NCBI GenBank assembly: GCA_031761405.1
Contig: JASEVX010000003.1
Location: 145,777,527 to 145,841,526, forward strand
Length of the DNA: 64,000 bases
Source of the DNA: Serripes groenlandicus
Lineage: Eukaryota > Mollusca > Bivalvia > Cardiida > Cardiidae
Direction: 5' to 3'
Position numbers and translations under genes: made by a program. The notes beneath the pieces are model-generated. The model was not told the DNA's origin and did no database searches. It saw only the letters and a list, made by a program, of their open reading frames with translations. Below, piece after piece: positions 1 to 23,045 of the stretch; within the stretch, counting starts at the first letter, position 1, and each line of letters opens with the position of its first letter.

Positions 1-6
1 AAGCGT

Positions 7-2085
7 ATGTGTAGCGAGAGGCCCAAGGATTGGGATAAGTACATTAATGCTGCGTTATTTGCGTATAGGGAAGTGCCACAGGAAAGTCTGGGGTTTTCCC
101 CATTTGAATTACTCTATGGCCGGACGGTCAGAGGACCGTTGAGCATTTTGAAAGAGTTATGGTCTGGCGAGGTCAATGATGTTGAAGTGAAATTGACATA
201 CCAGTACGTAATAGATTTACGTGAGCGACTCGAAGAGACATGTAAGATGGCACAGGATGAGTTAAGTAAGGCAAAGTCTAGACAGAAGATATACTATAAC
301 AAACGGGCAAAGGACAGAAGTTTCCCGATAGGTGCCAAGGTTCTGGTATTACTTCCGGTAAGTCATAATAAACTATTATTGCAGTGGAAGGGTCCATTTG
401 AAGTGATCAAGGTGATGAATAAGGTAGATTATAGAATTAATATGAAGGGCAAGGAAAAGACTTTTCATGCCAATATGTTGAAACAGTACAATGAGCGAAG
501 TGCTGATGACGGTAGTAGTGATAAAGGTATATTAGCAGTTGTTTGTTCTGCAGTTATTGAAGATAGTGAAGATCGGAAATTAGATAATGCAGACGTAGAT
601 TGGGTAGATGAGAAGATACCTTTAGAGTGTCTTTCTAGAGTAGGTAACGAGTCTAAAAAAGATGTAGACGTTTGTAAAGAATTGTCTCCTGAACAGAGGG
701 AGCAGGTTGACATGGTTTTGGAAGAGTTCGCCGATGTTTTGACAGACATACCGGGAACTACTTCACTTGTTGAACATGATATTAAATTAAATACATCAGA
801 ACCCATCAGGTTCAAGGGTTATCCTATTCCATACCAGTCGGTGGCAACAGTAAACGAAGAGGTCAGTAAGATGTTAGAGTTAGGAGTCATAGAGCATTCT
901 AATGCACCGTTTTCGAGTCCTATAGTATTGGTTAGGAAGAAGGACGGCACAGTTCGTTTCTGTATAGATTTCAGACAGTTAAACAGGGTGACAGTGTTTG
1001 ACGCTGAGCCAATGCCAAATATCGAAGAGATATTCTCGAAGGTATCGAGGGCAAAGTATTTTACTAAAATTGATCTTAGTAAGGGTTATTGGCAGGTGCC
1101 GTTGACAGAGCAGGCGAAAGATATGACGTCTTTTGAAACGCCAAAAGGGTTGTTTCGGTTCAACAAGATGCCTTTTGGTTTGGTTTGTGCGGCAAGTACT
1201 TTTTGTAGATTGATGAGGAAGGTTTTAAAGGATTTAGATTTTGCGGATAGTTTCATAGACGACATATTAGTATTTACCGTTACATGGGAGGAACATATAA
1301 CCGCTTTAAGAGAGATTTTTAGTAGGTTGAAGGTAGCCAAGTTAACAGCTAGACCGAGTAAATGTAGCATAGGATTTGGAAATCTGGAATGTTTGGGACA
1401 TGTCATTGATAGGGCTAGTGGGTTGATGCCAGTTCAGGGGAAGATAGAGGCACTACAAAAAGCAGAAAGACCGATTTCGAAGAAACAGGTTAGATCTTTT
1501 TTAGGGGTAGTTGGGTTTTACAGAAAATTCATTCCCAACTTTTCTGCAATTGCAGTACCTTTAACAGATCTTACTAAGAAAGGTCAACCAAATAAGGTTA
1601 TGTGGGGAGAATGTCAGGAAGTTGCTTTTCAGACTTTGAAGAAAAGTTTAGTAGGTCCTCCTATATTGAAGTTACCGGAATTTGATAAGTCTTTCATCCT
1701 TAGAACCGATGCTTCAGACATTGGATTAGGGGCGGTATTGTTACAGGATTCAGAAGGTGAGAAATTACCAGTTGCGTATGCAAGTAAGAAATTGTTAGAC
1801 AGGGAGAGAAATTACTCAGTAATTGAAAAGGAGTGTCTTGGTGTTATTTGGGGAGTGTCGAAATTTCATAGGTATTTGTTTGGCAAGGAATTCATCTTAG
1901 AGACTGATCATCAGCCTCTGACTTATTTAAATAAGTCTAAGATGGCGAATTCCAGACTGATGCGATGGGCGTTATCTTTGCAGCCCTATAGGATGAGCAT
2001 TAGAGCGATTCCAGGTAGAGAAAATGTAGGGGCAGATTACTTAAGTAGAGTAAACAGTCAAGTAAAGGAATCAGAAAACAGTTAG
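7..2085 (+). CDS. pol: Ty3/gypsy polyprotein 3' part, integrase before RT-RNase H (Gmr1-like)
   Basis: This is the C-terminal part of an LTR-retrotransposon Pol that copies element RNA and integrates the cDNA; it is open at the window edge. Residues about 15-45 match the end of a gypsy-type integrase core (LFAYREVPQ, SPFELLYGR), and residues about 115-155 match the integrase C-terminal module (QWKGPFEVI). After a linker, reverse transcriptase runs from about residue 230 to 430 with DFRQLN and the catalytic FIDD near residues 416-419. RNase H follows from about 560 to 680, with the TDAS Asp near 568, an Ile-Glu-Lys-Glu block and TDHQPLT. The RT and RNase H are of Ty3/gypsy type, yet integrase comes first, as in the Gmr1-like group. 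No stop or frameshift is visible. The integrase HHCC and DDE parts, protease and Gag would lie left of the window. Family assignment is strong; clade needs a tree. Confidence 0.9.
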   Translation: MCSERPKDWDKYINAALFAYREVPQESLGFSPFELLYGRTVRGPLSILKELWSGEVNDVEVKLTYQYVIDLRERLEETCKMAQDELSKAKSRQKIYYNKRAKDRSFPIGAKVLVLLPVSHNKLLLQWKGPFEVIKVMNKVDYRINMKGKEKTFHANMLKQYNERSADDGSSDKGILAVVCSAVIEDSEDRKLDNADVDWVDEKIPLECLSRVGNESKKDVDVCKELSPEQREQVDMVLEEFADVLTDIPGTTSLVEHDIKLNTSEPIRFKGYPIPYQSVATVNEEVSKMLELGVIEHSNAPFSSPIVLVRKKDGTVRFCIDFRQLNRVTVFDAEPMPNIEEIFSKVSRAKYFTKIDLSKGYWQVPLTEQAKDMTSFETPKGLFRFNKMPFGLVCAASTFCRLMRKVLKDLDFADSFIDDILVFTVTWEEHITALREIFSRLKVAKLTARPSKCSIGFGNLECLGHVIDRASGLMPVQGKIEALQKAERPISKKQVRSFLGVVGFYRKFIPNFSAIAVPLTDLTKKGQPNKVMWGECQEVAFQTLKKSLVGPPILKLPEFDKSFILRTDASDIGLGAVLLQDSEGEKLPVAYASKKLLDRERNYSVIEKECLGVIWGVSKFHRYLFGKEFILETDHQPLTYLNKSKMANSRLMRWALSLQPYRMSIRAIPGRENVGADYLSRVNSQVKESENS

Positions 2086-2262
2086 TGAAATGAGTATTTT
2101 AGGCACACATTGGAGTCATGACAGCTGTGTAATCGTGTATATATATATCAGGAATGCAATACTAAGGGAAATTAAGATACGGGTTGTAAATAGTACAGGG
2201 AACGAACCTGGTGTATTTTGTTAAATAGACAAAGTGTAACCACTTTATCCTTGGGGGGAACG
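2086..2262 (+). other. Spacer and polypurine tract before the 3' LTR
   Basis: Non-coding stretch between the Pol stop codon and the LTR. It ends in a purine run, ttggggggaacg at 2251-2262, directly before TGTTGTAACA. That is the position of the plus-strand primer (polypurine tract) in LTR elements. Confidence 0.6.
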
Positions 2263-3600
2263 TGTTGTAACAAAATAGATTTGGCGTGGCCTAAATAAAA
2301 GACGGTCAGTTAGTGCAGGTTGGTCACGTATGGTTTTAACTTATCGCAGGATTGTCAGGGAGATCATTGTTTATGAAGTTAATATCACTTATCACATATG
2401 TATATGATAATAAGCATATTAAGAGTTCATTTCATGTAAATCCGTTGAGAATTAAGGAATTGACGGGTTTAAAAACGTTAATTACGTTAAACTATGTTGC
2501 TATTTTCATTTGGCCTATAATTGTATTGAAACTAGTTGTTGATTGTGAATTACGATTTGCACGGGAATTTCGCCTGTCATCAGGAGACCCAGAGGTTGAT
2601 TGGTGCTATATAACTTACTCAAACATTTGTTTTGACCGTCAGTATCATAGGAGTCGCCAGAGGGTTTTCACTCGTTATAGTGAGAGGTAGTTGATGTGAC
2701 CAATTCACACGGCATATGGGTATGTAAATTCTTAGTTATTGTGCAAAGGGGTTGTCGGCATAATTAAGGAATGGAATCTGTGCAAATTTACAATGTTAGG
2801 GATTGAGATAATTATTACATGATTGAATTGTTTAGAGAATTTCTGGTTCACGAAGTGAATGTTTTTTACAGAAATTGAGTCCGTTAGGAGCGAGACAATG
2901 TGTTATGCTATTGGGAAAGATATGTTTGTATGAAAAGGATAAGAATGGAAGTGGGAAATGTAAAAGTATATTAGTATAGAGATGAGCTACCATAGGAGTA
3001 TAAAATGGTAGGCTGTTAGGTTTACGGAACATTATTGATATTATTGTAAGACATGGTTATTTATTACAATTTTAGCCGTGTTATGTCTATGGCTAGTCCA
3101 TATCGATAGCCAGACAACCGAAGTTCCAAACGCAGAAGTTTGAAGAACCAGTGTGTGTGACGCAGTCCACAACTTAATAAGACGTCGTAACGGGGGACAT
3201 TAGGAGGAGTGCCGTCATAGGACGTTTAGAACCATATATCCACAGTTGTGTGGCTTGTCGATCCCGGAATCCAAGGATATACGCGACGCAATGAATATAA
3301 GTACAACGACTCGGTGAAGTCGGGAAACGGATACAGTTGGATGTGAAGGACAACGTGTATGAACATTCCAAATACAGGGTACAGTAACGGAAGTGATGGG
3401 ACAGTTAAGTGATTTGGGTGAAAGTGTGGATGAGAGTGCGTGAGTAGTTCTTTTGTTTATAGCCTCTCGATTTGTCAGGAAAGTTGATTATTCAAAAATT
3501 GTATATATTTCATAACTGTAAATTAAACATATATTTTTATTCAACCATCGGCGTTCAATTCTACTTTAGTGAGTTGTCGACCCTTGACCATCTTGTGACA
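2263..3600 (+). repeat. Putative 3' LTR of the Gmr1-like element
   Basis: Begins with TGTTGTAACA right after the polypurine tract and ends in TTGTGACA near 3600, giving the usual TG..CA ends and about 1.34 kb. The right border is supported independently: from about 3601 onward the sequence is the mirror image of the right arm of the large palindrome. An AATAAA lies near 2295. The short open frames inside (for example 112 codons at 2352-2690) show no family features. The 5' LTR is outside the window, so the ends and target duplication cannot be confirmed here. Confidence 0.6.
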
Positions 3601-4330
3601 TAGATGTGTATTTCAAATATTTGGATGTTTGTAGTATTCTCTCAGATATTTTTCATAGTAGTCTATTCGACACATTTGTTTGGTGTCCTTTTTTAGTGTA
3701 TTGTATTGTACGGTATATTCAAAATACATGTCTTCGTCTGTTACTTTCTTATGTTATGGATCGAAATTGGCATTTGTAAATATTATTGGAACTAAAGAAA
3801 ATTCACAGTTTGAATTTGCGTAAACATGTTGCAAAAAGATGGATAAAGTCTATAGCGTAAAGCAATCTGCTGATAAGCCCTGCATTTCATTGGTGTTTCC
3901 GATGACCAATAACATTACAGCGAGAACCATGATCGCGTTACTACTCTGAATCATTCCGTGTTTGTAAATAACCTCGTTTCGTATAATAACCCGATCAAAT
4001 TCACCCTGCATATACTCTGTACCGTTCAATTAAACATAAACAAGCATTATCCTGCTGAAGACATGAATATAACAAGTTTGTACTATTCAATTATCAAATG
4101 ATCGTGAATTCGAACAACTGCTCGGCCATTCATTATTTTCTATGGGTTGTAATTTTACTCTTTTGGAGAAGGCAGAATCTTGTTTGAGAAGGACGTGTAA
4201 GTGAACTATCTTTGAAAACGGCGTTAAACTCCAATTCATCAATTAATTACTAAGACTAATGTCTCGTTGTGAACAAACTGATACTACTGGTGCCAGCGCT
4301 CTGAAATCACTTCAATGCAGAGGTATAATA

Positions 4331-4432
4331 ACCCTTTCCCACATATAGGCGCATATAGGCGCCTCTGCAGCAGACGATTTTTGGACCCATTGTGGCAAAA
4401 GGATAAATTGCTCATAATGAGAAATGATTTCA
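4331..4432 (+). mobile_element. MITE piece at the edge of the 51-bp array (left arm)
   Basis: Starts with TA|ACCCTTTCCC and runs through CTGCAGCAGACG and ATTGTGGCAAAAGGA before giving way to the tandem array. A 10-12 bp block (tataggcgc) is doubled. Mirror copy at 9627-9687 in the right arm. Confidence 0.7.
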
Positions 4433-4445
4433 ATATTAATACATA

Positions 4446-5175
4446 TGTCTGCTGAATGTGAATAATAGTAAACAAATAGTAATATGTATAACCCTTATAC
4501 CGCTGAATGTGGATAATAGTAAACAAATAGTAATATGTATAACCCTGATACCGCTGAATCTGGATAATAGTAAACAAATAGTAATATGTATAACCATTAT
4601 CTCGCTGAATGTGGATAATAGTAAACAAATAGTAATATGTATAACCCTTATACCGCTGAATGTGGATAATAGTAAACAAATAGTAATATGTATAACCATT
4701 ATCTCGCTGAATGTGGATAATAGTAAACAAATAGTAATATGTATAACCCTTATACCGCTGAATGTGGATAATAGTAAACAAATAGTAATATGTATAACCC
4801 TGATACCGCTGAATGTGGATAATAGTAAACAAATAGTAATATGTATAACCCTTATACCGCTGAATGTGGGTATGAGTAAACAAATAGTAATATGTATAAC
4901 TCTTATACCGCTGAATGTGGATAATAGTAAACAAATAGTAATATGTATAACCCTTATACCGCTGAATGTGGATAATAGTAAACAAATAGTAATATGTATA
5001 ACCCTGATACCGCTGAATGTGGATAATAGTAAACAAATCGTAAAATGTATAACCCTTAAACCGCTGAATGTGGATAATAGTAAACAAATCGTAATATGTA
5101 TAACTCTTATCCAGCTGAGTGTGGATAATAGTAAACAAATCGTATCATGTATAACCCTTATACCGCTGAATTCCT
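4446..5175. repeat. 51-bp tandem array, about 14 units (left arm)
   Basis: Head-to-tail units of 51 bp, each containing gtggataatagtaaacaaat followed by an AT-rich part ending in ttataccgctgaat. Variants alternate, with cccttataccg, ccctgataccg or ccattatctcg ends. Because 51 is a multiple of three and the unit lacks stops in several frames, long open frames with a 17-residue period appear on both strands; these are not evidence of a gene. The mirror array is longer, about 22 units. Confidence 0.9.
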
Positions 5176-5350
5176 GCATTCTTTATCATCACTCCTGATA
5201 TTGTGACAAGTTCTAACATATTTATGAACTAATCTTTACTATATATTGATAGATGAATAGCCAGACTAGGCTTGAACGGTGGGTAGGCTGATTTGGATCT
5301 ATAGTGTTCTAAAATGTCAACGGCTTGCTCTGCGGATAACGTAAACGGGG

Positions 5351-5495
5351 TATCCTTTTCCCATCTTCAGCAATTCTGCAGCAGACGAATTTGAAAACAT
5401 CTAGGCAAAAGTATATAAAATCTCTATACGTGAAAGTACTATTAATGTAGAGTTGAAAAGACTGTGAGAGAAGGAGTAATTGCCTTTATATTCTT
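5351..5495 (+). mobile_element. MITE, first half (left arm)
   Basis: Reads tccttttccc, CTGCAGCAGACG, TTTGAAAACATCTAGGCAAAA and a TATAGAGAT-like segment in the usual MITE order. Mirror copy at about 8172-8308. Confidence 0.65.
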
Positions 5496-5879
5496 TATAC
5501 GTAATACATATGTATGTATAGTCAGCTTCTTTATAAATTCATTGTAGTGTTTAAAAGTTGCAAGCGAGAAAACAAGTTTGATGATACAACAAAGCAGCAG
5601 TTTCGAATGCTCGTGTGATGCAATCTCTCTATGTTTCTGGAGAATTTCTCAAATACTCGGTAAGTGAACATTAAAGACAAAAACGAGAGGTACTTTCCTT
5701 ATGGTTGCAGTTACCACTGTTGAACTGTCTTTTGAGTGCGCACAAGGTAGGGTTTGTTTGAGTCATAAGATAGATAATGTTGGTAAGAGATCAGTAACTC
5801 CTCCTTATCTAGTCCCAGTTTCAGCACCTCATAACCTCCTTGTGGAGTATTACTTATTAGACCACACGTGACATTTAAT

Positions 5880-6290
5880 TGTAATATAAATAAATACTTA
5901 ATTAAATATCACCCATATACATTTTTAGCTATACCAGGGACACTATATTACTGTAATCTTTTGACCTTGTTTATTTCAACTTTAATTAAATATCATCCAT
6001 GTACATTTATCTGTACCAATAGAAATCCGCCATCTTTTGACTTTGTTTATTTCAACTTGAATTAAATATCACCCATATACATTTAGCTATACCAATAAAT
6101 ATCCGCCATCTTTTGACCTTGTTTATTTCAACTTTAATTAAATGTCACCCATATACATTTGAGCTGTACCAATAGAAATCTGCCATATTTTGAATTTGTT
6201 TATTCCAGCTTTAATTAAATGTCACCAATACACATTTAGCTGTACCAATAGAAATATGCCGTATTTTGACATGAATGTTTTAATCAAATA
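5880..6290. repeat. About 80-bp AT-rich tandem repeats (left arm)
   Basis: Four to five diverged units, each with taattaaatatcacccatat, an imperfect tagctataccaatagaaat and gccatcttttgac(c)ttgtttattt. The mirror array is at 7390-7770. Confidence 0.75.
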
Positions 6291-6488
6291 TGTGATTCGT
6301 CTTTTTGAAAAGAAACATAGTGGTTTAAAGGACGCACGGTTCTAAATTCAATGCTACAATATAGGTACATCGTAATGATGAATGCGTTTTCCTAAACGTC
6401 AGGAACAGGTTAATTATGTGGAGTAACATTCTAATAAACAGCAAACGATAAGATCAGTAATTGATAATCTATCTCAAGCACCATCTGG

Positions 6489-6760
6489 TCAATAGTACTT
6501 GTATTTGATTGGCTGTCCAACTGACCAGTGGCACAAGTGGACATTCTGGGGTAAACATGAGTAATATTAAGTCCAATCATAGACTGGAAATAATTAATCT
6601 CTGTGAACAGTTGTTGTGATCATCTGGTTAATAGTACTAGTATGTGATTGGCTGTATGGTTGACCCGTGGCACGAGTGGACATTTGAAGTATGCATAAGT
6701 AATAGTGACCGTTTCTGCAAGACAAATTATAGACTGGAAAAAAAAACCATCGCTGTAAAC
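6489..6760. repeat. Diverged tandem duplication at the inner end of the left arm
   Basis: The block starting catctggtcaatagtact near 6489 recurs from about 6620 (catctggttaatagtact), with shared gtgattggctgt, gtggcac.agtggacatt and tatagactggaaa. Only the outer copy is mirrored in the right arm (7048-7180), so the inner copy belongs to the spacer. Confidence 0.7.
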
Positions 6761-7046
6761 AACAGGTATTGTGACTTTCATTTATAGAGAGTTTCCATGT
6801 TTTGCCCGAATGGATTCAAAGTCGTCTCCTACTAGCAGTTGTGATACAAAAGGTTTAATAAAAATAAGATTGTGGTAAAATCATGAGACATTTACACATT
6901 TATCGTCAAATGTGACAAAGTGTCCGATGTTGCAATTTTTCAAATTGCCCGGTGTTGTAAGAAAATGCGATATCTGAACTTACGTAGTTGTGAGGCAGTT
7001 TCGGACGATTCTTTAGACACGATCGCGCGAAATCTCACGAAACACC
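6611..7046. other. Spacer of the palindrome
   Basis: About 436 bp not mirrored. In order it holds the inner copy of the duplication, a MITE piece (about 6774-6848, with catttatagagagtttccat and caaagtcgtct), unique AT-rich sequence and the FBXL-like coding fragment at 6908-7033. Confidence 0.75.
6908..7033 (+). pseudogene. FBXL-type leucine-rich-repeat exon fragment
   Basis: In one open frame this 126-bp stretch encodes about 42 residues of the kind seen in F-box/LRR proteins: CDKVSDVAI, ARCCKKMRYLNLRSCE, VSDDSLDTIARN. The spacing of Cys-Lys, SD(x), L-x-L-x-x-C and a second SDD block fits two consecutive Cys-containing LRRs of the FBXL7/FBXL20 type, which pick substrates for SCF ubiquitin ligases. 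After ARN the expected Cys-x-x-Leu continuation is absent and the frame runs within about 13 bp into the right arm. No F-box, other LRRs or clear splice sites are nearby, so it looks like a captured or broken exon. Family call is good; which FBXL cannot be said. Confidence 0.7.
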
Positions 7047-7389
7047 TGTTGTTCACAGAGATGAATTATTTCCAGTCTATGATTGGACTTAATATTACTC
7101 ATGTTTACCCCAGAATGTCCACTTGTGCCACTGGTCAGTCGGATAGCCAATCAAATACAAGTACTATTGACCAGATGGCGCTTGAGACAGATTATCAATT
7201 ACTAACCTTATCGCTGACTGTTTATTAGAATGTTACTCCACATAATTAACCTGTTCCTGACCTTTATGAAAACGTATTCATCATTGTGATGTACCTATAT
7301 TGTAGCATTGAATTTGAACTGTGCGTCCTTTAAACCACTATGTTTCTTTTCAAAAAGACGAATCACATATTTGATTAAAACATTCATGT

Positions 7390-7770
7390 CAAAAGACGGC
7401 ATATTTCTATTGGTACAGCTAAATGTGTATTGGTGACATTTAATTAAAGCTGGAATAAACAAATTCAAAATATGGCAGATTTCTATTGGTACAGCTCAAA
7501 TGTATATGGGTGACATTTAATTAAAGTTGAAATAAACAAGGTCAAAAGATGGCGGCTATCTATTGGTATAGCTAAATGTATATGGGTGATATTTAATTCA
7601 AGTTGAAATAAACAAAGTCAAAAGATGGCGGATTTCTATTGGTACAGATAAATGTACATGGATGATATTTAATTAAAGTTGAAATAAACAAGGTCAAAAG
7701 ATTACAGTAATATAGTGTCCCTGGTATAGCTAAAAATGTATATGGGTGATATTTGATAAAGCATTTATTT
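7390..7770. repeat. About 80-bp AT-rich tandem repeats (right arm)
   Basis: Mirror of the array at 5880-6290, with atgggtgatatttaatt and aaataaacaaggtcaaaaga recurring four to five times. Confidence 0.75.
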
Positions 7771-8171
7771 ATATTACAATTAAATGTCACGTGTGGTCTA
7801 ATAAATAATACTCCACAAGGAGGTTATGAGATGCTGCAACTGGAACTAGATAAGGAGGAGTTACTGATCTCTTACCAACATTATCTATCTTATGACTCAA
7901 ACAAACCCTACCTTGTGTGCACTCAAAAGACAGTTCAACCGTGGTAACTGCAACCATAAGGAAAGTACCTCTCGTTTTTTTCTTTAATGTTCAACTTACC
8001 GAGTATTTGAGAAAGTCTCAAGAAACATACAGAGATTGCATCACACGAGCATTCGAAACTGCTGCTTTGTTGTATCATCAAACTTGTTTTCTCGCTTGCA
8101 ACTTTTAAACACTACAATGAATTTATAAAGAAGCTGACTAAACATACATACGTATTACGTATAAAGAACAT

Positions 8172-8308
8172 AAAGGCAATTACTCCTTCTCTCACAGTCT
8201 TTTCAACTCTACATTAATAGTACTTTCACGTATAGAGATTTTACAGACTTTTGCCTAGATGTTTTCAAATTCGTCTGCTGCAGAATTGCTGAAGATGGGA
8301 AACGGATA
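8172..8308 (-). mobile_element. MITE, first half (right arm)
   Basis: Mirror of 5351-5495; contains cttttgcctagatgttttca and tcgtctgctgcagaattgct, ending in gatgggaaacgga. Confidence 0.65.
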
Positions 8309-8488
8309 CCCCGTTTACGTTATCCGCAGAGCAAGCCTTTCACATTTTAGAACACTATAGATCCAATTCAGCCTACCCACCGTTCAAGCCTAGTCTGGTT
8401 ATTCATTTATCAATATATAGTAAAGACTAGTTCATAAATATGTTAGAAATTTTCACAATATCAGGAGTGAGGATAAAGGATGCAGGAA

Positions 8489-9630
8489 TTCATCAGTATA
8501 AGGGTTATACATATTACGATTTGTTTACTCTTATTCAGATTCAGCGGTATAAGGGTTATACATATTACGATTCGTTTACTATTATCCACATTCAGCGGTA
8601 TAAGGATTATACATATTACTATTTGTTTACTATTATCCACATTCAGCGGGATAAGGGTTATACATATTACGATTTGTTTACTATTATCCACATTCAGCTG
8701 GATAAGGGTTATACATATTACTATTTGTTTACTTTTATCCACATTCAGCGGGATAAGGGTTATACATATTACGATTTGTTTACTATTATCCACATTCAGC
8801 TGGATAAGGGTTATACATATTACTATTCGTTTACTATTATCCACATTCAGCGGTATAAGGATTATACATATTAATATTCGTTTACTCTTATCCACATTCA
8901 GCGGTATAAGGGTTATACATATTACTATTTGTTTACTCTTATTCAGATTCAGCGGTATAAGGGTTACACATATTGCGATTTGTTAACTCTTATTCAGATT
9001 CAGCGGTATAAGGGTTATACATATTACGATTCGTTTACTATTATCCACATTCAGCGGTATAAGGGTTATACATATTACTATTTGTTTACTCTTATTCAGA
9101 TTCAGCGGTATAAGGGTTACACCTATATTGCGATTTGTTTACTCTTATTCAGATTCAGCGGTATAAGGGTTATACATATTACGATTCGTTTACTATTATC
9201 CACATTCAGCGGTATAAGGGTTATACATATTACGATTTGTTTACTATTATCCACATTCAGCGGTATAAGGGTTATACATATTACTATTTGTTTACTATTA
9301 TCCACATTCAGCGGGATAATGGTTATACATATTACTATTTGTTTACTATCATCCACATTCAGCGGGATAATGGTTATACATATTACTATTTGTTTACTAT
9401 TATCCACATTCAGCGGGATAATGGTTATACATATTACTATTTGTTTACTATTATCCACATTCAGCGGGATAAGGGTTATACATATTACTATTTGTTTACT
9501 ATTATCCACATTCAGCGGTATAAGGGTTATACATATTACTATTTGTTTACTATTATCCACATTCAGCTGGATAAGGGTTATACATATTACGATTCGTTTG
9601 TTTACTATTATTCACATTCAGCGGTATAAA
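8489..9630. repeat. 51-bp tandem array, about 22 units (right arm)
   Basis: Inverted relative to the left-arm array, with atttgtttactattatccac and attcagcggtataagggtta recurring every 51 bp. Units mix ataagg, ataatgg and gctggataagg variants. The two arms differ in unit number and variant order, so they expanded or converted independently after the duplication. Open frames here share the 17-residue period and are not genes. Confidence 0.9.
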
Positions 9631-9687
9631 AAGTCGTCTGCTCCAGAGGCGCCTATATGCGCCTATATGTGGGAAAGGGTTATTATA
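9631..9687 (-). mobile_element. MITE end flanking the array (right arm)
   Basis: Mirror of 4331-4380: gtcgtctgctccagaggcgc, then the doubled gcctatatg block and GGGAAAGGGTTA. Confidence 0.7.
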
Positions 9688-10017
9688 CCTCTTCACTGAA
9701 GTGATTTCAGAGCGCTGGCCCCAGTAGTATCAGTTTGTTCACAACGAGACATTAGTCTTAGTAATTAATTGATGGATTGGAGTTTAACGCCCTTTTCAAA
9801 GATAGTTCTAACTCTTTACCTGTTTTTCTTGGCTTTTTCACACGACTAGCCAACACGTCCTTCTCAAACAAGATTCTGCCTTCCCCAAAAGAGTAAACTT
9901 ACAACCCATAGAAAATAATGAATGGCCGATCATTGGATTTTTTTTTACAGAAATGTAATAGCACAAACTTGTTATATACATGTCTTCAGCCGGATAAGGG
10001 TTGTTTATGTTTAATTG

Positions 10018-10196
10018 AATGGTACAGAGTATGTGCAGGGTGGATTTGAACGGGTTATTATCCAGGACTTATACGAAACGAAGTTATTTACCTGTATATG
10101 AAGGTGAAGGGTGAATCTGAACGGTACAGAGTATGTGCAGGGTGAATTTGAACGGGTTATTATCCAGGACTTATACGAAACGAAGTTATTTACAAA
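10018..10196. repeat. Roughly 100-bp tandem duplication (right arm only)
   Basis: The block aatggtacagagtatgtgca through cgaaacgaagttatttac (10018-10092) recurs at 10117-10192. The left arm has only one copy, near 3962-4030, so the duplication is later than the inversion. Confidence 0.8.
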
Positions 10197-10553
10197 CAAA
10201 GAATGAAACAGATCATGTTTCTCGCTGTAATGTTATTGGTCATCGGAAACACCAATGAAATGCTGGGCTTATCAGCAGATTGCTTTACGCTATAGACTTT
10301 CTCCATCTTTTTGCAACATGTTAACCAACACACAGAAAGCTGTTTACGCAAATTCAAACTGTGAATTTTCTTTATTTCCAATAATATTTACAAATGCAAA
10401 TTTCGATCCATAACATAAGAAAGTAACAGACGAAGACATGCATTTTGAATATACCGTACAATATAATACACTGAAAAAGGACACCAAACAAATATGTAGA
10501 ATAGACTGCTAAGAAAATATCTGAGAGAATACTACAAACATCCAAATATTTGG

Positions 10554-10859
10554 ATTGATTGATTGATTGATTGGGGTTTAACGCCGTTTTCTTTAACAAT
10601 TTCTCAGTTATATCACGGCGGCCAGTTCACCTACTCATGCATTACCTGGTTTTCTCAGACCAGTACTCCACACAACAATCTTCCCAAACAACTGGCTGCT
10701 TTTCCGCATAGACTTAGCCCATTGCTGGAGGACGAGTGAAGCATGTCGCATTGACTTTTGTCAATCGTCGGAAAGAAAGTTGGCCGAGCCGAGATTCGAA
10801 CTCACAACCCATGGATTGAAAGCCCGCGTCGCTTCCGCCTGAGCTACTGGGGCTCGGCC
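10554..10859 (-). mobile_element. tRNA-derived SINE (family A) with 11-bp target duplication
   Basis: On the minus strand it begins GGCCGAGCCCCAGTAGCTCA, a tRNA-like head with an A box (TAGCTCAG) and a B box-like GAGTTCGAATCTC. It continues with a body containing gacaaaagtcaatgcgaca and ends in CGGCGTTAAACCCCAATC and a (CAAT)n tail. The target duplication caaatatttgg is present on both sides (10543-10553 and 10860-10870). It is inserted in the outer part of the right palindrome arm. Confidence 0.9.
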
Positions 10860-10937
10860 CAAATATTTGGAATACACACATGTAATAAAGATTTAAATTA
10901 AAAGAAGGAATTGACATTGAGAAACAATGTTTCCTTA

Positions 10938-11161
10938 ACCCTTTCCCTCATACGACAATTCTGCAGCAGACGTCTTTGAACATATTTTGTCAAAAAATGG
11001 AAAATCTGTATAACTGAATGGATAACCTATGACTAAAAGTGGAAAACATTGTGGCAAAAGGAGAAATTGCTCGTCTTGAGCAATTTCTTCTTTTGTCACT
11101 ATGTTTTCAAAAAGCCGTCTGCTGCAGAAGCGTCAGAAAGCATCTTTATGGGGGAAAGGGT
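10938..11161 (+). mobile_element. MITE, complete copy (reference copy of the family)
   Basis: A 224-bp element with inverted ends ACCCTTTCCC..GGGAAAGGGT flanked by TA on both sides. The interior is itself quasi-palindromic: CTGCAGCAGACG near the left end mirrors CGTCTGCTGCAG near the right, and gagaaattgctcg..gagcaatttc forms the central stem. There is no ORF. TA flanks suggest mobilisation by a Tc1/mariner-type transposase; no such enzyme is in the window. This subtype carries CTCATACGACAATTCTGC after the left end. Confidence 0.9.
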
Positions 11162-11507
11162 TAAAATTCAATGCTTTCAATGTCTTATGACGCATCATCA
11201 TAAGTTGGATTGAAGGAAATAACCAATTCAAGATCGATAACTACAGTATTTAGAGATATTAATGACTGCAATTTAAAGAATGTGTTCAAGCAATATATTT
11301 TAACTACAACATTGAATGGGTTATTTGTTCCAAATGTCTGTAAGGGATATGGTTGGTAGAAACCGTTCTTATTCGATAATCCAAAATCGATGTAAATGTT
11401 AGCTATTAAAACCTGTAGCATTTTGTTCCGAAACAGTCTTTAACTGGCTTGGGACAATCAATCTCACGTGACCCCACTTGACAGGTCAAGGTCGTAACGA
11501 AATATGG

Positions 11508-11513
11508 TATAAA
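11508..11513 (+). promoter_or_regulatory. TATA box of the WAP/acidic secreted-protein gene
   Basis: TATAAA about 88 bp before the ATG, giving an expected start near 11535-11545 and a 5' UTR of about 50-60 nt. A CACGTG E-box lies upstream at 11465-11470. Confidence 0.6.
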
Positions 11514-11595
11514 TGGAAGAACTGACCGTTGTTGTTTCATAGTTCAGCAAGACCACTAGCGACTTAGGCGTAATAGTTCAAACGAAATAACAAAG

Positions 11596-14500
11596 ATGGA
11601 AGTTATCTCAAAGATTGTGTTGGTGCTTATATTTGCTGCTATTTGTACAGGTAAGATTGTTATTAACAATTGTCAGTTTTAAAACTTTCGTTATTCGGCA
11701 AAAATGACAGGTGTCAGTATTGGCAGCAATGCAAGCTTAAACTGGGTAAATAATTTTTAGAAACAACAATAACTTAATACATCTACAATGATGGGTTTTG
11801 AAAGGCAAGTTAGGAAAAGGAGTACTCGCTTATAAATGAGCGATTTATTTCCCTTTTTGACACAATGTTTTAAGATCTATTCAAACTACTTTGATTTATT
11901 GAGATTTTCCATAATTTTATTTAAGAATTTTTGAATTCATCTGCTGCATATTTAATATATATGGGGAGTGGTTTCGAGGCTGTCAATTCAAAAAAGGAGA
12001 TTTTTACAACTTATCAATTTTTCATGTAAATAAATAGAGAGACTTAAGAACAGCACCTTCTTTCTAGGTTACTATTTAATCGCCATGAATGGGCCTGCTG
12101 CTATCACATGTTTACATTTACCCCACAATGGTTTACAATACTGTGTCTGCTTAATATGCGTGCAGAAGTAAATCTATCGTAGAAAGGGGTTCATTTAAAC
12201 GCTGTTTGGTAACCATAGGTATGGGGTTAGCCTAACTCTCAATGATATATATATATAAAGTGTTATTATTGAGCTTGGTATTTCTGATATTAGGTTAAAC
12301 AAGTTTGGAAAAGATAAAAAAGCAAACAACCAAAATATTAATCATGAGCAATATTTAGTTTTATGGGATGCTTTCTCTTTAAAATCTATATTCATTTGTC
12401 TTGATTATTCAATACGTCACCCATACTATATTTATTTGTATTGATTATTCAATTCATCACCCATACTATATTTATTTGTCTTGATTATTCAATTCATCAC
12501 CCATACTATATTTATTTGTCTTGATTATTCAATTCATCACCCATACTATATTTATTTGTCTTGATTATTCAATTCATCACCCATACTATATTTATTTGTC
12601 TTGATTATTCAATTCATCACCCATACTATATTTATTTGTCTTGATTATTCAATTCATCACCCATACTATATTTATTTGTCTTGATTATTCAAGTCATCAC
12701 CCATACTATATTTATTTGTCTTGATTATTCAAGTCATCACCCATACTATATTTATTTGTCTTGATTATTCAAGTCATCACCCATACTATATTTATTTGTC
12801 TTGATTATTCAAGTCATCACCCATACTATATTTGTTTGTCTTGATTATTCAATTCATCACCCATACTATATTTATTTGTCTTGATTATTCAATTCATCAC
12901 CCATACTATATTTATTTGTCTTGATTATTCAATTCATCACCCATACTATATTTATTTGTCTTGATTATTCAATTCATCACCCATACGTTTTGGAAGGGTT
13001 TAACAAGAACTAGTTGTTGTATTTGTCCGATTCCATTCAACGATAGCCGAATACTGCCGACAAATGATTTGACAATTTTTTTTGTGATTTTCCGAAAAAA
13101 TTTGCCACGACTACTTGTTATGTCTCCAGGAGGCAGACATCGAGCAAGATTAATATAAGCTCAAAGCTTCCTTTGCAATCGATGTAAAATAAAAAAGCAT
13201 TTATATAACGATCGTTTATTATTCAATCTACATATAGTCTAATATACGTTATTGGTAATACAAAAGAATAATCTCAGGGAGGAGTTGAAAGTCAGATCTG
13301 GATTTATAACTCAACACCCCTCGTGTGTGAATGTTAATGTTATATTTTCTATAACAGCGAGTAAGCCTGGCTTTTGCCCGTCCGATTTAGACCTGCCATC
13401 ACGGATAACAGTGCACAGATATGCGGCCTGTCTAAATGACTACCAGTGTCCAGGGGATCATAAATGTTGTGGGGAAATATGTCACCCACCAGGTGAGTAA
13501 AGAACGAATGCCGTAATGGTATTGTTATCTAGTAAGTTAGTAGTAACCCTTTCCCAAATACAGCAATTCTCCAACAAACGAATTTGAAAAGATACTGGCA
13601 AAAAATTATACAGTTGTATAACATTGTGGCAAAAGGCTATATTGCTTATTATAAACAGTACAATCTCTCCTTTTGCCATAATGTGTCCAAAAGTTGTATA
13701 CCGCAAAGGCGTCAGAAGGCGTCTGAGAGGGTGAAAGTGTTTATCTTAATATGTATATAGCGCGCAATGTTTCACTGTGAGTGTGTGTCACAGTATGCCA
13801 GTTATATCACAGCTCTCACCAGGATTACTAAAACTACCTGTATGTATTCTCATTCTAATGAATCGGTCGTAATGTTTTCAACGATTGATTGTTCGATTGG
13901 GGTTGAACGCAGTTTTCAACAACTGTTCAGTAATATCACGGCAGTAAGCTACTCATGTTTTTCCTGGCTTCATCACACCACACAACATACCTTCCAAGCT
14001 ACGGGCTGATTGAGGGTCAATGAAGTTCATATAATTTTCGCCAAAACATATACGCGAGTAGCCCTAAAAAAGCAGATGCACACTTCCAGAATATGTGTTG
14101 AGTGTAATTAAATGAAGAGTCTAATTGAGAAAAATTGCTTTTAGACAAAGTACACGGACACTTTAGGGTTTTGAGTTCAAATATGGCTTTTCAATCTTGA
14201 CATACAAGTCAAGTGCCCTTATCATGTATCCTGTATCTGTATTATTTGCAGCATGTGATCGGGACGTTCCAAAGGTTGCGTGTCTGGTCAATCCATGTGA
14301 CTTTTCAGTATGCAATGCAGTGCCGGATGCAAAGTGTTTGTAAGTAAATAGTTATTACTTATTGTTAGTATGTTGTTAATATGAACTATGTTACGATGAC
14401 GTAAATGAACTCGGTATGTAAAGTGCAATGCTCTTGTGTTTGTATTTTGTTTGTTTTGACCTTTGTTTTCCATCTTCTTTTTCAAGTGTATCGTACGTAA

Positions 14501-16013
14501 GCTGTTATTAACCCTTTTCCACATGCACACACAATCTGCAGCAGACGACTTTGAAGACAATTACACAAATATAGGGGAAATGTCTATCTATGTATGAAAG
14601 TGTAACTATTGAATATATTTAAAAAGATTGCGACTAAAGGAGAAAATGCTCATCATGAGTAATTTCTCCCTTTGCCACAATGTTTTCAAAAGTTGTCTGA
14701 TGCAAAGGCGTCATAAAGCGCATGTGTGTGGGAAAGGGTGAATGCATCATGCACGGATTAAAACTCTTTGTGAAATTAAGTCAATTTAAGTGCAGCATAT
14801 AGATGATACTTGCATAAAAATTCATTGTAAATCATGAATTATAGAAAGTACTTTATTTTGATTGGTTGAAATACATGTAGCGATCTGGTATTTTCCGAAA
14901 AGGAGTCAAATGACAAAATATTCGAGGTTCTTTTTTTATTTTTAGATGACTTAGCAGAAATGTTGCTTAAGTGGCCCTCTACAAAACGTATTCAATTTTT
15001 TTTGATAAGTAAAATTTAATGTAGTCATATTGTCCGAAAGAGCACATTCTCTGCTATGCGCATAGCAGAGAATGTGCTCTTCCAGACAATATGATTACAT
15101 TGAACCCGAGGCTATAGTATAACATTCTTACGTTACAATCATTAATATCTTCTTTCAGCCAGAACCCATGTGGCGAATGTAAGGCAGTGTGGTTTATTGA
15201 ATCGGGAAATGTAGACAGTCTTTGTAAAAATGAAGACGATCGAAGTATCGGCACTGCTGACGCTTTAGCTTCGGATGAAACATATGATTCAGTCGATAAG
15301 CTGGAAGACCTGTTAGGAGACGATGCAAGCGAAGATGGTGATGATCTTAACGATGACGTTGACGCAGATGAAGAGGAAAACAGCGATGACGACAAGGAAA
15401 GTGATGTTGATGTTAATTCAGATGATAATAATGATGATAATGACCATTCAGATGATAATGTTGATGCCGATTCAGCTGATATTGATGATGATGAAGATGA
15501 TGCCAATTCAAACGACGACGATGATGATAGCGACAACGTCGTGATTACTAGCGATGAAGAGTAAGTTAACCCTTTCATGATATGCTCGGCATAAATCTAC
15601 TCAGAAATATCATCGTGCGTCGGCAATAATTCATTGTCTTGATACTTTCATTCCTTCTCTACACATTGTTATATCCGGTTACTTTACAAGCGCGTTGACG
15701 AAAATACCACGTTTACCGATGTTTCTTCTTCATTCAACATAAAAAACACGTTCAATTTGCAGATATGCAAAACATCCTCCTGTTTTGAGGAAAGAGTTTG
15801 ACGTCTTCATTACTTTCTATTTTAAGATTATCATGGAGAGGCAGGAAAGCTCGGCGACGTGGAAGAAAACAAAAATCGAATGCCCTTAAAATGGCCAAGA
15901 AAGCCAAGCGTCAGGAACGACGAAAAGCAAAACTAGCCGCCAAAGGTGAAGAGGCAGAACAATCCAACACAAGAAAGAAAACAGGATGGAGAAAAGGAAG
16001 GCTTGGGTGTTAA
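11596..16013 (+). CDS. Secreted WAP / Cys-rich / Asp-rich / Lys-Arg-rich protein, five exons
   Basis: Predicted exons are 11596-11650, 13358-13492, 14252-14339, 15159-15560 and 15827-16013. All introns are GT..AG, phases agree (1,1,2,2), and the total is 867 nt (288 codons plus TAA). Exon 1 is a signal peptide (MEVISKIVLVLIFAAICT). Exon 2 is a WAP (four-disulfide-core-like) domain with KPGFCP, a Cys-x5-Cys pair, CPGDHKCC and ICHPP, but only six of eight cysteines. Exon 3 and the start of exon 4 form a second Cys-rich module (NPCDFSVC, AKC, NPCGEC). The rest of exon 4 is a long Asp/Glu tract; exon 5 is Lys/Arg-rich. WAP domains are protease-inhibitor or matrix modules, and Asp-rich tracts bind calcium in shell-matrix proteins, so an extracellular-matrix role is plausible but inferred. 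A different frame stays basic to 16309, suggesting a one-base frameshift near 15970-15990. If the exon 4 donor is unused, a TAA at 15562 ends the protein after the acidic tract. Confidence 0.8.
11651..13357 (+). other. Intron 1 of the WAP/acidic gene
   Basis: Donor GTAAGA after the signal-peptide exon, acceptor ttttctataacag before the WAP exon. No coding features; it holds the 40-bp minisatellite. A 65-codon open frame at 12961-13158 is an array-edge artefact. Confidence 0.7.
12404..12986. repeat. 40-bp minisatellite in intron 1, about 14.5 units
   Basis: Units of ttgattattcaattcatcac followed by ccatactatatttatttgtc repeat with almost no change. The main variant is aattcatcac against aagtcatcac, and the variants cluster in blocks. 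The high uniformity suggests recent expansion or strong homogenisation. Confidence 0.95.
13546..13735 (+). mobile_element. MITE copy in intron 2 of the WAP/acidic gene
   Basis: TA|ACCCTTTCCC left end, central tggcaaaagg..ccttttgcca stem, right end decayed to gagagggtg. Confidence 0.7.
13880..14010 (-). mobile_element. 3' part of a family A SINE (intron 2)
   Basis: ttgattgttcgattggggtt, gaacgcagttttcaacaa and taatatcacggcagtaagc match the 3' half of the SINE at 10554-10859. The tRNA head is missing, so it is a 5'-truncated old copy. Confidence 0.7.
14511..14740 (+). mobile_element. MITE copy in intron 3 of the WAP/acidic gene
   Basis: TTA|ACCCTTTTCC left end, CTGCAGCAGACGACTTTGAA, central stem, and GTGGGAAAGGGT right end; nearly full length. 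Confidence 0.8.
15018..15101. repeat. Near-perfect 84-bp palindrome in intron 3
   Basis: Two 42-bp arms with about three mismatches and no loop, centred at ctgctatgcgcatagcag. It ends about 58 bp before the exon 4 acceptor and does not match the MITE. It would form a strong hairpin in the pre-mRNA or a cruciform in DNA. Confidence 0.9.
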
Positions 16014-16309
16014 AGAGAAAGGCAATGAAGGCAGAACGAAAGGCCGCCAGGAAAGCCGCTAAATCGGAAAAATGGAACGGAATGTCCGCAGATGAAATAC
16101 AAGCAGCCAAGGCATCGAGGCGAGCAGCGAGAATTGAAAAGAAGCAACAGTTTCTGAGTATGTCTGTGGATGACAGACGCACAGCAAAAATGGAACGAAG
16201 ACAACAAAGGATCAACAAAAGTATGCGGAAAAAGGAAAACAGAATGGAAAAATCCGCACGTCAAATGCAAAAGATGTACCACCGAAGAGCTGGTATAAAA
16301 CGCACGTAA
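16014..16309 (+). pseudogene. Out-of-frame continuation of the basic tail
   Basis: From about 15970 a second frame stays open to TAA at 16307-16309 and encodes further Lys/Arg/Ala/Met-rich sequence (KAERKAARKAAK, MSADEIQAAKASRRAARIEK, MSVDDRRTAKMERRQQR). Composition and internal repetition match exon 5, so this is very likely the original C-terminus separated by a single-base indel. It could be a real mutation, an assembly error in an A-rich run, or an alternative 3' splice choice. Confidence 0.55.
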
Positions 16310-16357
16310 TTATACAAAAGTTATAAATTAGCAATTCAGGTTTAATCTTTTTTTTTC

Positions 16358-16562
16358 CCATTCCCACATACATACGCCCTCCGACGCCCCCGCAGCAGAC
16401 ACACTGTTTACATGATCGTGGCTAGAGAAGAATTTGCTGATGATGATAAATTTCTAATTTCTACTTATGCCACAATGTCTTCATTTTGATTCATTTTTTT
16501 TTCCATAAATTGAGCTTCCATATTCTGTTTTCAATGCTAAATTGTTATATGTGGGAAAGGGT
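16358..16562 (+). mobile_element. MITE copy, diverged
   Basis: cattcccacatacatacgcc at the left, gcagcagacacactg, and TATGTGGGAAAGGGT|TA at the right. It lies just after the WAP/acidic gene. Confidence 0.7.
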
Positions 16563-16771
16563 TAAGTCACCTCCGGTAATAGCATCGCATAAAGGTGAAG
16601 TGACGTAAAACTAGAAGAACTTAACTTCAAACATTTCACAAAGTTTACACCTATATATATATGTAGCCGGACAGTGAATGTTATTGGGAGTGAACGCACA
16701 CACTCGTCTGACGAGGTGCCTGTAAACAATAACTGAGGCACCGCACCATCCAAACCTCACTCCCTTGGTTA

Positions 16772-16995
16772 ACCCTTTCCCTCATACGACAATTCTGCAG
16801 CAGACGACTTTGAACATATTTTGTCAAAAAATAGAACATCTCTATAATTGAATGGATAACCTATGACTAAAAGTGGAAAACATTGTGGCAAAGGGAGAAA
16901 TTGCTCGTTCTGAGCAATTTCTTCTTTTGTCACTATGTTTTTAAAAAGCCGTCTGCTGCAGAGGTGTCAGAAAGCGTCTATATGACAGAAAGGGT
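16772..16995 (+). mobile_element. MITE, complete copy
   Basis: 224 bp, TA|ACCCTTTCCCTCATACGAC to cagaaAGGGT|TA, very close to the copy at 10938. Confidence 0.85.
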
Positions 16996-18325
16996 TAACA
17001 AGGCAAACCAACCTTAACCCGAATTTGAAAACATTTAGAAATAAGTGTTGTAACTTTTGAAATGAATTGCCTTACTTGTAATTTCAACTCGGTCAGCGCC
17101 AATTGAGGTTTATGCAAACAATACAGATTCAGGTGAGTGAGCTTGTAATGAGCTGTTTCACCTGATATCAGCATTGTTGGCCTTTCAAAATATTCTCAAA
17201 CTCTTATTACAATATAGGTATCCGATTTTGAACATTGAATAGTCTAATTTAGGAAATTCGGCGCTTAAAGATATTTACTTTGAAAATAAATTCAAATGCT
17301 ATGTTCAGATGAATACAGAGTTTTAAACACATTCTATATCTCCTTTTAAAACAATGCTTTCAAGAACTTATTTGCACCAGGGTCGTTAGATTGTTTCTAT
17401 TTAGGATAAAGGACCTATGGGTTTTCTTTCACAGTATGTACATTTATTTTAACTTGATTGTCAAAATGATGACATGTTTGTAAATCATTCATCAATACAT
17501 CGACGATTCCTTTATTTCCCCTTATTTGTAAGTATTGTTACTACTTTGCAACTTTAACGGCGTATTCCTTGTACTGCATGTATTTGGATAGTCTAAATAC
17601 AGAGAGTGGTATATATTGTCCAGCAGAAATGAATCTCAATACAAGTTTGGCTGTGTAGTTAACTTAACACATGGGTATATGACCCTTTGGTAGAAAATGA
17701 ATAAAACTTGAAACTTGAAACTTATAAATGATTCCTCCATGGTGTTCTTATTGAGTCATTGCTATATTTGAGTATAACTATGAGATATAATATGAAGCAG
17801 TGACTAAATTGAAACAAATCAGACTTATCCCAATTTTGCGAAAAATTAAATTTTACATATAAACTATTCCTTTTATTGGCTTATGAAAAATGGATATGTT
17901 GTGTATGCTATTGTTCTAAAACTTTCAATCCTTATCCGGCTACGTTTACTGCAACCGTTGATAGATTCGGCCATAAGGCGAGACTAGGCTTTCCACATTT
18001 CTTGAGCATATGTTGTTAAGATTGGTACAATATAGCAGACAATGTAGTCACATATCAAAATGCACGGATATTATCTCTGTGCATGCTTCGTTATTTTTTT
18101 CCTGCTAAATTGTCGTCTGCAACCTTTAGTTAATCTTTTAGGTTGATGGTGAAATGAGAATCTGGGTGTCAAACAGCTTGGGTCTCGTATCAGGCCCCAT
18201 GTTTGATTGGATTAATCTGGATCAAAACTGTTTGCGTAGTTCATCACCATTTGGCTATATCTGTCCTTCGCGTTCAAAGAGTTTAGGCTGATATTGGTGT
18301 TCATTGTTTCCAAACGTTGTTTATC
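16996..18325. other. AT-rich region without a recognisable gene
   Basis: No supported coding sequence. AATAAA at 17700-17705 is followed by repeated aacttgaaac and could be a distal polyadenylation site of the upstream gene; this is uncertain. Confidence 0.4.
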
Positions 18326-20590: not shown

Positions 20591-23045
20591 ACTGCTTCGC
20601 TGATGTCATGATAAATGGACTAATGGGTAATTTACCAAGGTAAACATGTTATAACTGATAAATGGACCGATAGTACGGGTAATTTACCAAGGTAAACATG
20701 TTATAACTGATAAATGGACCGATAGTACGGGTAATTTACCAAGGTAAACATGTTATAACTGATAAATGGACCGATAATACGGGTAATTTACCAAGGTAAA
20801 CATGTTATAACTGATAAATGGACCGATAGTACGGGTAATTTACCAAGGTAAACATGTTATAACTGATAAATGGACCGATAGTACGGGTAATTTACCAAGG
20901 TAAACATGTTATAACTGATAAATGGACCGATAGTACGGGTAATTCACCAAGGTAAACATGTTATAAATGATAAATGGACCGATAGTACGGGTAATTTACC
21001 AAGGTAAACATGTTATAACTGATAAATGGACCGATAGTACGGGTAATTCACCAAGGTAAACATGTTATAACTGATAAATGGACCGATAGTACGGGTAATT
21101 TACCAAGGTAAACATGTTATAACTGATACACGGACCGATAGTACGGGTAATTTACCAAGGTAAACATGTTATAACTGATAAATGGACCGATAGTACGGGT
21201 AATTTACCAAGGTAAACATGTTATTACTGATAAATGGACCGATAGTACGGATTAATTCACCAAGGTAAAGATGTTATAACTGATAAATGGACCGATAGTA
21301 CGGGTAATTTACCAAGGTAAACATGTTATAACTGATAAATGGACCGAAAGTACGGATTAATTCATCAAGGTAAACATGTTATAACTGATAAATGGACCGA
21401 TAGTACGGGTAATTTACCAAGGTAAACATGTTATAACTGATAAACGGACCGATAGTACGGGTAATTCACCAAGGTAAACATGTTATAACTGATAAACGGA
21501 CCGATAGTACGGGTAATTCACCAAGGTAAACATGTTATAACTGATAAATGGACCGATAGTACGTGTAATTTATTAAGGTAAACATGTTATAACTGATAAA
21601 TGGACCGATAGTACGGGTAATTTACCAAGGTAAACATGTTATAACTGATACACGGACCGATAGTACGGGTAATTTACCAAGGTAAACATGTTATAACTGA
21701 TACACGGACCGATAGTACGGGTAATTTACCAAGGTAAACATGTTATAACTGATACACGGACCGATAGTACGGGTAATTTACCAAGGTAAACATGTTATAA
21801 CTGATACACGGACCGATAGTACGGGTAATTCACAAAGGTAAACATGTTATAACTGATAAATGGACAGATAGTACGGGTAATTCACCAAGGTAAACGTGTT
21901 ATAACTGATAAATGGACCGATAGTACGGGTAATTTACCAAGGTAAACATGTTATAACTGATAAATGGACCGATAGTACGGGTAATTTACCAAGGTAAACA
22001 TGTTATAACTGATAAATGGACCGATAGTATGGATTAATTCACCAAGGTAAACATGTTATAACTGTTAAATGGACCGATAGTACGGGTAATTTACCAAGGT
22101 AAACATGTTATAACTGATAAATGGACCGATAGTACGGGTAATTTACCATGGTAAACATGTTATAACTGATAAACGGACCGATAGTACGGGTAATTTACCA
22201 AGGTAAACATGTTATAACTGATAAATGGACCGATAGTACGGGTAATTTACCAAGGTAAACATGTTATAACTGATAAATGGACCGATAGTACGGGTAATTC
22301 ACCAAGGTAAACATGTTATAACTGATACACGGACCGATAGTACGGGTAATTTACCAAGGTAAACATGTTATAACTGTTAAATGGACCGATAGTACGGGTA
22401 ATTTACCAAGGTAAACATGTTATAACTGATAAATGGACCGATAGTACGGGTAATTTACCAAGGTAAACATGTTATAACTGATAAATGGACCGATAGTACG
22501 GGTAATTTCCCAAGGTAAACATGTTATAACTGATAAATGGACCGATAGTACGGGTAATTCACCAAGGTAAACATGTTATAACTGATACGCGGACCGATAG
22601 TACGGGTAATTCACCAAGGTAAACATGTTATAACTGATTAATGGACCGATAGTACGGGTAATTTACCAAGGTAAACATGTTATAACTGATTAATGGACCG
22701 ATAGTACGGGTAATTTACCAAGGTAAACATGTTATAACTGATACACGGACCGATATTACGGGTAATTTACCAAGGTAAACATGTTATAACTGTTAAATGG
22801 ACCGATAGTACGGGTAATTTACCAAGGTAAACATGTTATAACTGATACACGGACCGATATTACGGGTAATTTACCGAGGTAAACATGTTATAACTGTTAA
22901 ATGGACCGACAGTACGGGTAATTTACCAAGGTAAACATGTTATAACTGATAAATGGACCGATAGTACGGGTAATTCACCAAGGTAAACATGTTATAACTG
23001 ATAAATGGACCGATAGTACGGGTAAACATGTTATAACTGATAAAC
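20591..23045. repeat. 52-bp satellite array, about 47 units, derived from a SINE
   Basis: Unit: aaggtaaacatgttataact followed by gataaatggaccgatagtac and gggtaatttacc. Common variants are gatacacgga, gttaaatgga and aattcacc. The unit aligns to the 3' portion of the adjacent family B SINE (gataaacgttaccagtagta, ctggtaacttacctaggaaa, cgccgtaatataact), so the array grew from a SINE. Confidence 0.9.

Follow-up and report, generated by a model that had tools for sequence, protein, structure and literature searches.

A candidate gene of Serripes groenlandicus for a secreted protein with a WAP-like head, an Asp-rich block and a basic tail, and a change of reading frame in its last exon

Introduction

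A locus in the genome of the bivalve Serripes groenlandicus raises the question whether Cys-rich modules, a long Asp-rich block and a basic tail belong to one and the same secreted protein, and what such a protein might do. It spans positions 11596-16309 of a stretch of 64,000 nucleotides from contig JASEVX010000003.1 (assembly GCA_031761405.1), which is called the window throughout. A sequence-only reading had proposed five exons with consistent phases, encoding a signal peptide, a WAP-like domain, a second Cys-rich module, an acidic tract of about 100 residues and a basic tail. The analysis reported here confirmed the order of these parts, and the charges of the last two proved to be closely matched, which fits the earlier idea of self-association. 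In contrast, the reading of exon 5 had to be revised. The favoured interpretation, which is given a probability of about 0.4, is a secreted protein of the shell-matrix type that associates with itself and binds calcium.

Results

Exons 1 to 4 encode a leader, two Cys-rich heads and an Asp-rich block

Splice sites were ranked with a simple splice model based on splice-site frequencies, which was applied to the 307 GT and 302 AG sites in 11500-17000 (Table 1). The first four exons on the plus strand (55, 135, 88 and 402 nucleotides) have GT-AG borders and join in phase, and this outline of the gene is real. Of the five exons with consistent phases that had been proposed, these four stood, while the fifth had been misread, because its in-phase acceptor at 15825 and the stop codon at 16309 lie in different frames. 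The G+C contents of exon 2 (0.50) and exon 3 (0.48) are higher than those of the four introns (0.30-0.37), whereas exon 1 (0.35) is not richer.

A signal-peptide-like leader, with a 9-residue hydropathy maximum of 3.49, occupies residues 1-18. Residues 21-61 matched the Pfam family PF00095 (WAP) with an E-value of 4.6e-7 and 30.4 bits, compared with a curated cut-off of 20.8. A WAP domain has eight Cys in four disulfides, and only six Cys are encoded in exon 2. In an alignment with elafin Cys II is absent, and the sole candidate for Cys VIII, residue 65, lies one residue too far away and is encoded in the next exon. Because the set of eight Cys is incomplete, the domain is called WAP-like here; the earlier assignment thus held for the profile score, but not for the full Cys pattern. 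The nearest solved chain was elafin, a protease inhibitor, at an E-value of only 0.12, and exon 2 modelled alone gave a poor fold with a mean predicted local distance difference test score (pLDDT) of 57.2. The protein contains this one WAP match and no tandem of the Perlwapin type, and a tblastn search with the heads against the 64-kb window revealed nothing further below an E-value of 0.99.

The second Cys-rich module was confirmed with eight Cys across exons 3 and 4, which are spaced C-x8-C-x4-C-x4-C-x7-C-x4-C-x2-C-x14-C. In a Pfam profile search it reached no family above its cut-off. Both heads together contain 14 Cys, and as this is an even number, full pairing is possible.

The acidic tract was also verified: residues 119-227 have a net charge of -50, and they thus form a long and strongly negative block as in Asp-rich shell proteins. 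Of the 95 codons at the 3' end of exon 4, 40 specify Asp (30 GAT, 10 GAC) and nine Glu. Since the Asp codons are mixed and uninterrupted (GAT)n does not exceed three copies, the block is neither a plain microsatellite nor a recent triplet expansion. An open stretch of 148 codons on the plus strand in 15100-15620 was equalled in none of 1000 dinucleotide shuffles. A second shuffle test, for an acidic fraction of at least 0.40, was not used, as its threshold was above the observed value of 0.385. Retention of intron 4 would lead to a protein of 227 amino acids that ends exactly behind the acidic block.

The basic tail is read in two frames

The acceptor at 15825 (rank 30/302) is in phase with exon 4 and opens frame 1, which reaches a stop at 16011-16013 and would yield a protein of 288 amino acids. 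The stop codon at 16309 belongs to frame 0. An unbroken in-phase path from exon 4 to this stop would require as acceptor one of 15 AGs between 15950 and 16286. Two of these, 15950 and 15956, retain nearly the whole frame-0 tail, but their ranks are 160/302 and 221/302; the highest-ranked AG of the set, 16175 (rank 51/302), loses nearly two thirds of it.

Both frames were scored with codon models, and the scores were compared with those of positions on both strands outside about 11500-16400. With training on 16016-16306, frame 1 of 15828-15944 reached 32.2 bits versus a maximum of 18.8 at 117,968 other positions, and none of 2000 mononucleotide shuffles attained this value. After stricter training on 16094-16306 alone, the score was 20.9 bits versus a maximum of 16.5 elsewhere, and it was reached by two of 2000 shuffles. 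Frame 0 of 15971-16090, for which other parts of the tail were used for training, scored 43.5 bits, and none of 117,962 other positions exceeded 16.0. The motif KKENRMEK is encoded twice, at 15971 and 16229, and the two copies have four third-position differences, all of which are synonymous, so that no residue is changed. The open length of the tail is weak evidence when taken alone, as it was reached in 32 of 1000 shuffles of 15800-16330. Because both frames are coding-like and are parts of one basic tail, it was concluded that the coding frame changes between 15945 and 15970; the optimum of a switch scan was at 15963-15971. The proposed basic tail was therefore retained in that both pieces are basic and coding-like, and it was corrected in that no single frame leads from exon 4 to 16309.

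The frame change most likely reflects an erroneous base or an allelic variant and would then be no regular property of the gene; decay and recoding are further candidates, and an additional intron is less likely. Classic programmed -1 slippage was considered and rejected, as no X XXY YYZ heptamer was present in any phase in 15900-16010, a result that speaks only against the classic type.

The charges of the two blocks nearly cancel

With the codons of 15945-15970 left out, the two pieces of the tail sum to +46, compared with -50 for the acidic block, and thus the charges nearly cancel. The distal 113 residues (15968-16306) were modelled with AlphaFold2, which predicted helices at residues 2-37, 41-64 and 67-107 with a mean pLDDT of 88.6 and a predicted template modelling score (pTM) of 0.39. 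The distal tail is thus likely to be helical, while the arrangement among the helices is not fixed by a model with this pTM. Helix is readily predicted for a single chain with much Ala, Lys, Arg and Glu, and the model is therefore taken as support and not as proof. The maximum hydrophobic moment was 0.64 (helix 1), and hydrophobic residues account for 24-42% of each helix. A Foldseek comparison of the tail model with the PDB yielded no match at E-values up to 10. The only PDB match of the tail sequence at an E-value up to 1 was an enkurin-domain protein (0.38), which was taken as chance.

Table 1. Coordinates of the features of the candidate gene within the window; ranks refer to the splice model described in the text.
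Feature	Position	Strand	Remarks
TATA-box-like motif TATAAA	11508-11513	+	88 nucleotides upstream of the ATG; putative role
Exon 1, start codon and signal-peptide-like leader	11596-11650	+	ends in phase 1; donor rank 2/307
Exon 2, WAP-like domain, six Cys	13358-13492	+	135 nucleotides, symmetric phase 1-1; acceptor rank 10/302, donor rank 1/307
Exon 3, start of the second Cys-rich module, five of eight Cys	14252-14339	+	acceptor rank 6/302, donor rank 27/307
Exon 4, remaining three Cys of the second module, then Asp-rich block	15159-15560	+	acceptor 15157 rank 11/302, donor rank 11/307
In-frame TAA within the exon 4 donor GTAAGT	15562-15564	+	stop of the 227-amino-acid acidic form upon retention of intron 4
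Exon 5, first part of the basic tail	15827-15944	+	frame 1; net charge +18 over the 39 codons of 15828-15944
Interval of the change from frame 1 to frame 0	15945-15970	+	from codon statistics and switch scan
Exon 5, second part of the basic tail and stop codon	15971-16309	+	frame 0; net charge +28 over 112 codons; predicted to be helical

Relatives in sequence databases and in the literature

A search with residues 1-125 of the joined protein yielded 24 candidates, none of which had an E-value up to 0.01; eukaryotes were poorly covered, and the result is not read as absence. With the heads alone (106 amino acids) no candidate sharing three words was found in a database that probably consists of open frames of contigs, in which short exons would be missed. 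Searches of prokaryotic and viral contigs with fragments of exon 4 and the tail gave no relative, as was expected. As a positive control, part of the protein of a long interspersed nuclear element (LINE) from the window was used, for which 3545 proteins at E-values up to 1e-20 were found among 6510 candidates; animal sequence is thus represented in the database. None of the literature matches listed, which came from open-licence papers without supplementary tables, describes a protein with this combination, which does not prove that none exists. Each part is of a known kind, and the new element is their combination together with the charge balance.

Discussion

A putative block polyampholyte of the shell matrix

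The order of the parts and their charges suggest how such a protein could work. After secretion, the two heads would fold as disulfide knots, and the acidic block would be disordered and might bind calcium weakly and in bulk. The basic and probably helical tail could bind to the acidic block of neighbouring molecules, to acidic polysaccharide or to carbonate. Since the acidic and basic blocks nearly cancel, molecules of the protein would be expected to gather into a condensed phase or film rich in calcium, for which the shell matrix is the most likely place. If transcripts confirm the gene, it would encode a natural block polyampholyte with disulfide heads, and it would allow a direct test whether charge matching inside one matrix protein drives the condensation of calcium carbonate precursors.

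Several known proteins share parts of this design; the papers cited here were available in excerpts, to which all statements about them refer. WAP proteins occur in the shell matrix of Lottia (PMC3374290), and WAP is one of seven domains of a bivalve toolbox (PMC8382897). The symmetric phase of the WAP-like exon would suit exon shuffling, and its combination with charged low-complexity exons could be an example of the domain shuffling ascribed to shell secretomes (PMC8382897). Like Perlwapin of Haliotis and the Lottia proteins, the protein described here would be secreted, with a WAP-type domain and a possible role in the shell. However, Perlwapin has three WAP domains and the Lottia proteins up to eleven (PMC3374290), whereas a single WAP-like domain with six Cys is combined with charged blocks here. 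A long Asp-rich block that is taken to bind calcium is shared with Aspein, Asprich, MSP-1 and other Asp-rich shell proteins (PMC3374290, PMC8217771, PMC9496343), but the excerpted descriptions of Aspein, Asprich and MSP-1, by which alone they were compared, contain no Cys-rich heads. Poly-Asp regions are regarded as calcium binders and basic domains have been suggested as anchors for polyanions (PMC8217771). Pif80, which is also acidic and disordered, forms liquid condensates in a calcium-dependent manner (PMC9496343). It differs in being a fragment cut from a longer protein, and a WAP-like head is not part of its excerpted description, on which this comparison is based (PMC9496343).

Oppositely charged halves, a leader, a centre with eight Cys and an acidic C-terminus are also found in the Accripin11 family of Pinna, Pinctada, Atrina, Crassostrea and Mytilus (PMC9808598). 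In that family, however, the basic half precedes the acidic one, the acidic end is short, and the Cys spacing is C-x3-C-x6-C-x3-C-x12-C-x3-C-x6-C-x3-C (PMC9808598), a pattern that does not occur here. Basic domains are present in the mollusc shell proteins KRMP and Lustrin A, the latter of which also has Cys-rich modules (PMC4498902). The plan of Lustrin A, with ten Cys-rich and eight Pro-rich domains, is not seen here, nor is the Lys-rich domain of KRMP followed by a Gly/Tyr domain (PMC4498902), as the frame-0 tail has two Gly and one Tyr.

Several points weigh against the shell-matrix interpretation. Exon 5 holds the frame change, and the AGs at 15788 (rank 16) and 15761 (rank 17) outscore the acceptor at 15825 (rank 30); they would yield C-terminal ends of 33 and 42 residues without a strongly basic character. 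At exon 4, a competing AG at 15161, four nucleotides into the exon, ranks 2, ahead of the AG used at 15157 (rank 11), and yet it breaks the phase; the splice ranks are therefore support, but not proof, for the exon model. Cys II is missing from the WAP-like domain. The shell proteome of Pinctada fucata contained no WAP proteins, perhaps because they were too scarce or because of the sensitivity (PMC4660305). WAP proteins also have functions in immunity, and they have been filed under immunity and matrix protection (PMC6641155). A secreted protein with acidic and basic blocks need not be a mineral protein, and the evidence comes from genomic DNA. The shell location and the mineral binding are thus put forward as suggestions.

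Alternative explanations

An immune effector is an unlikely alternative. The WAP-like head and the cationic helical tail would be antimicrobial, and the acidic block, as a pro-piece, would shield the positive tail until proteolytic cleavage at the polybasic junction. This would be in line with a basic, predicted helical and, by the moment of helix 1, partly amphipathic tail, with the nearly matched charges of the two blocks and with the antimicrobial WAP proteins reported from marine arthropods in the excerpted literature. However, the tail is about 160 residues long and poor in hydrophobic residues and thus unlike typical short peptides, and the very Asp-rich block resembles mineral proteins. 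Crustin-like antimicrobial WAP proteins are characterised by a complete WAP domain together with bactericidal activity; the WAP-like domain of the present protein is incomplete.

A decaying or non-functional copy appears just as doubtful. The frame change would then be fixed, the locus would yield the truncated protein of 288 amino acids or nothing, and intact paralogues may exist elsewhere. The frame change itself would be explained, and the locus lies between two repeats of about 230 bp, which have partial relatives in its introns. Yet the start codon, the splice sites of four exons and two long open stretches are intact, the distal frame is open for 112 codons, and the KKENRMEK copies differ only synonymously. 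Moreover, one wrong base in the assembly would account for the frame change equally well.

With a still lower probability, the protein could be a secreted protease inhibitor or an adhesive protein of another tissue, such as foot, gland or egg coat, in which the acidic and basic blocks drive cohesion and have no role in the shell. The faint resemblance to elafin points in this direction, and block polyampholytes can condense without mineral. In contrast, positive evidence for such a tissue is lacking, and with Cys II absent, inhibition cannot be judged.

It is rather improbable that the acidic and basic parts belong to separate transcripts, such that the acidic protein ends at residue 227 with intron 4 unspliced, or with another short end, and 15827-16309 belongs elsewhere. 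The TAA inside the donor of exon 4 would provide such an end, that donor ranks 11/307, and both 15788 and 15761 score better as acceptors than 15825. However, 15825 joins in phase with exon 4 and leads directly into the beginning of the coding-like basic frame. In frame 1, which opens at 15789, the first ATG is found at 15891, within the basic stretch, and in frame 0, which opens at 15950, it is found at 15986; a separate basic gene would therefore need its own upstream exon.

It would be quite speculative to assume that splicing provides one gene with two opposite tools. Retention of intron 4 would lead to a soluble, calcium-holding polyanion of 227 amino acids (mature net charge -54), and splicing would add the matched helical tail of about +46 to form a self-condensing block polyampholyte, while the frame change or an optional intron at 15946 could be a third setting of the tail. 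Least probable of all is a sixth exon, in which a donor-like site at 15946 (rank 4/307) is joined to an in-phase acceptor, the best of which is 16090 (rank 55/302; 146 nucleotides), so that frame 1 passes into frame 0 without a break and the tail carries about +34, because this intron would excise most of the coding stretch that scored 43.5 bits in frame 0, including one of the two KKENRMEK copies.

Repeats and mobile elements around the gene

The two flanking repeats of about 230 bp (10935-11164 and 16769-16998) are 93% identical and in direct orientation, and shorter as well as inverted relatives are present in the introns. Intron 1 contains 15 copies of a 40-bp unit with 98% matches (12386-12986), and intron 3 a palindrome without loop, with arms of 45 nucleotides that are 91% complementary (15015-15104). 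A tRNA-Glu-like sequence with the anticodon ttc (10781-10853, minus strand) is probably the head of a tRNA-derived short interspersed nuclear element that reaches the TTGATTGATTGGGGTTTAACG end near 10555; similar ends were seen by eye near 9770 and 13884. Satellite-like arrays of 51-bp units lie 5' of the gene (4451-5171 and 8488-9629), by eye in opposite orientations, and 46 copies of a 52-bp unit form another one at 20625-23025.

At 35347-38298 (plus strand) long overlapping open frames were found, two of which have no Pfam match at E-values up to 0.001, and which resemble a DIRS-like element. A LINE-like element in pieces, with GDSL-like, endonuclease and reverse transcriptase frames, lies at 27813-31691 (plus strand). 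Another LINE-like protein is encoded by 1116 open codons at 41721-45071 (minus strand). The 120 relatives listed for this protein include 17 that are named as metagenome-assembled genomes of Candidatus Thiodiazotropha and one of Sedimenticola. Candidatus Thiodiazotropha are symbionts of lucinid clams, and these matches suggest host DNA in symbiont bins.

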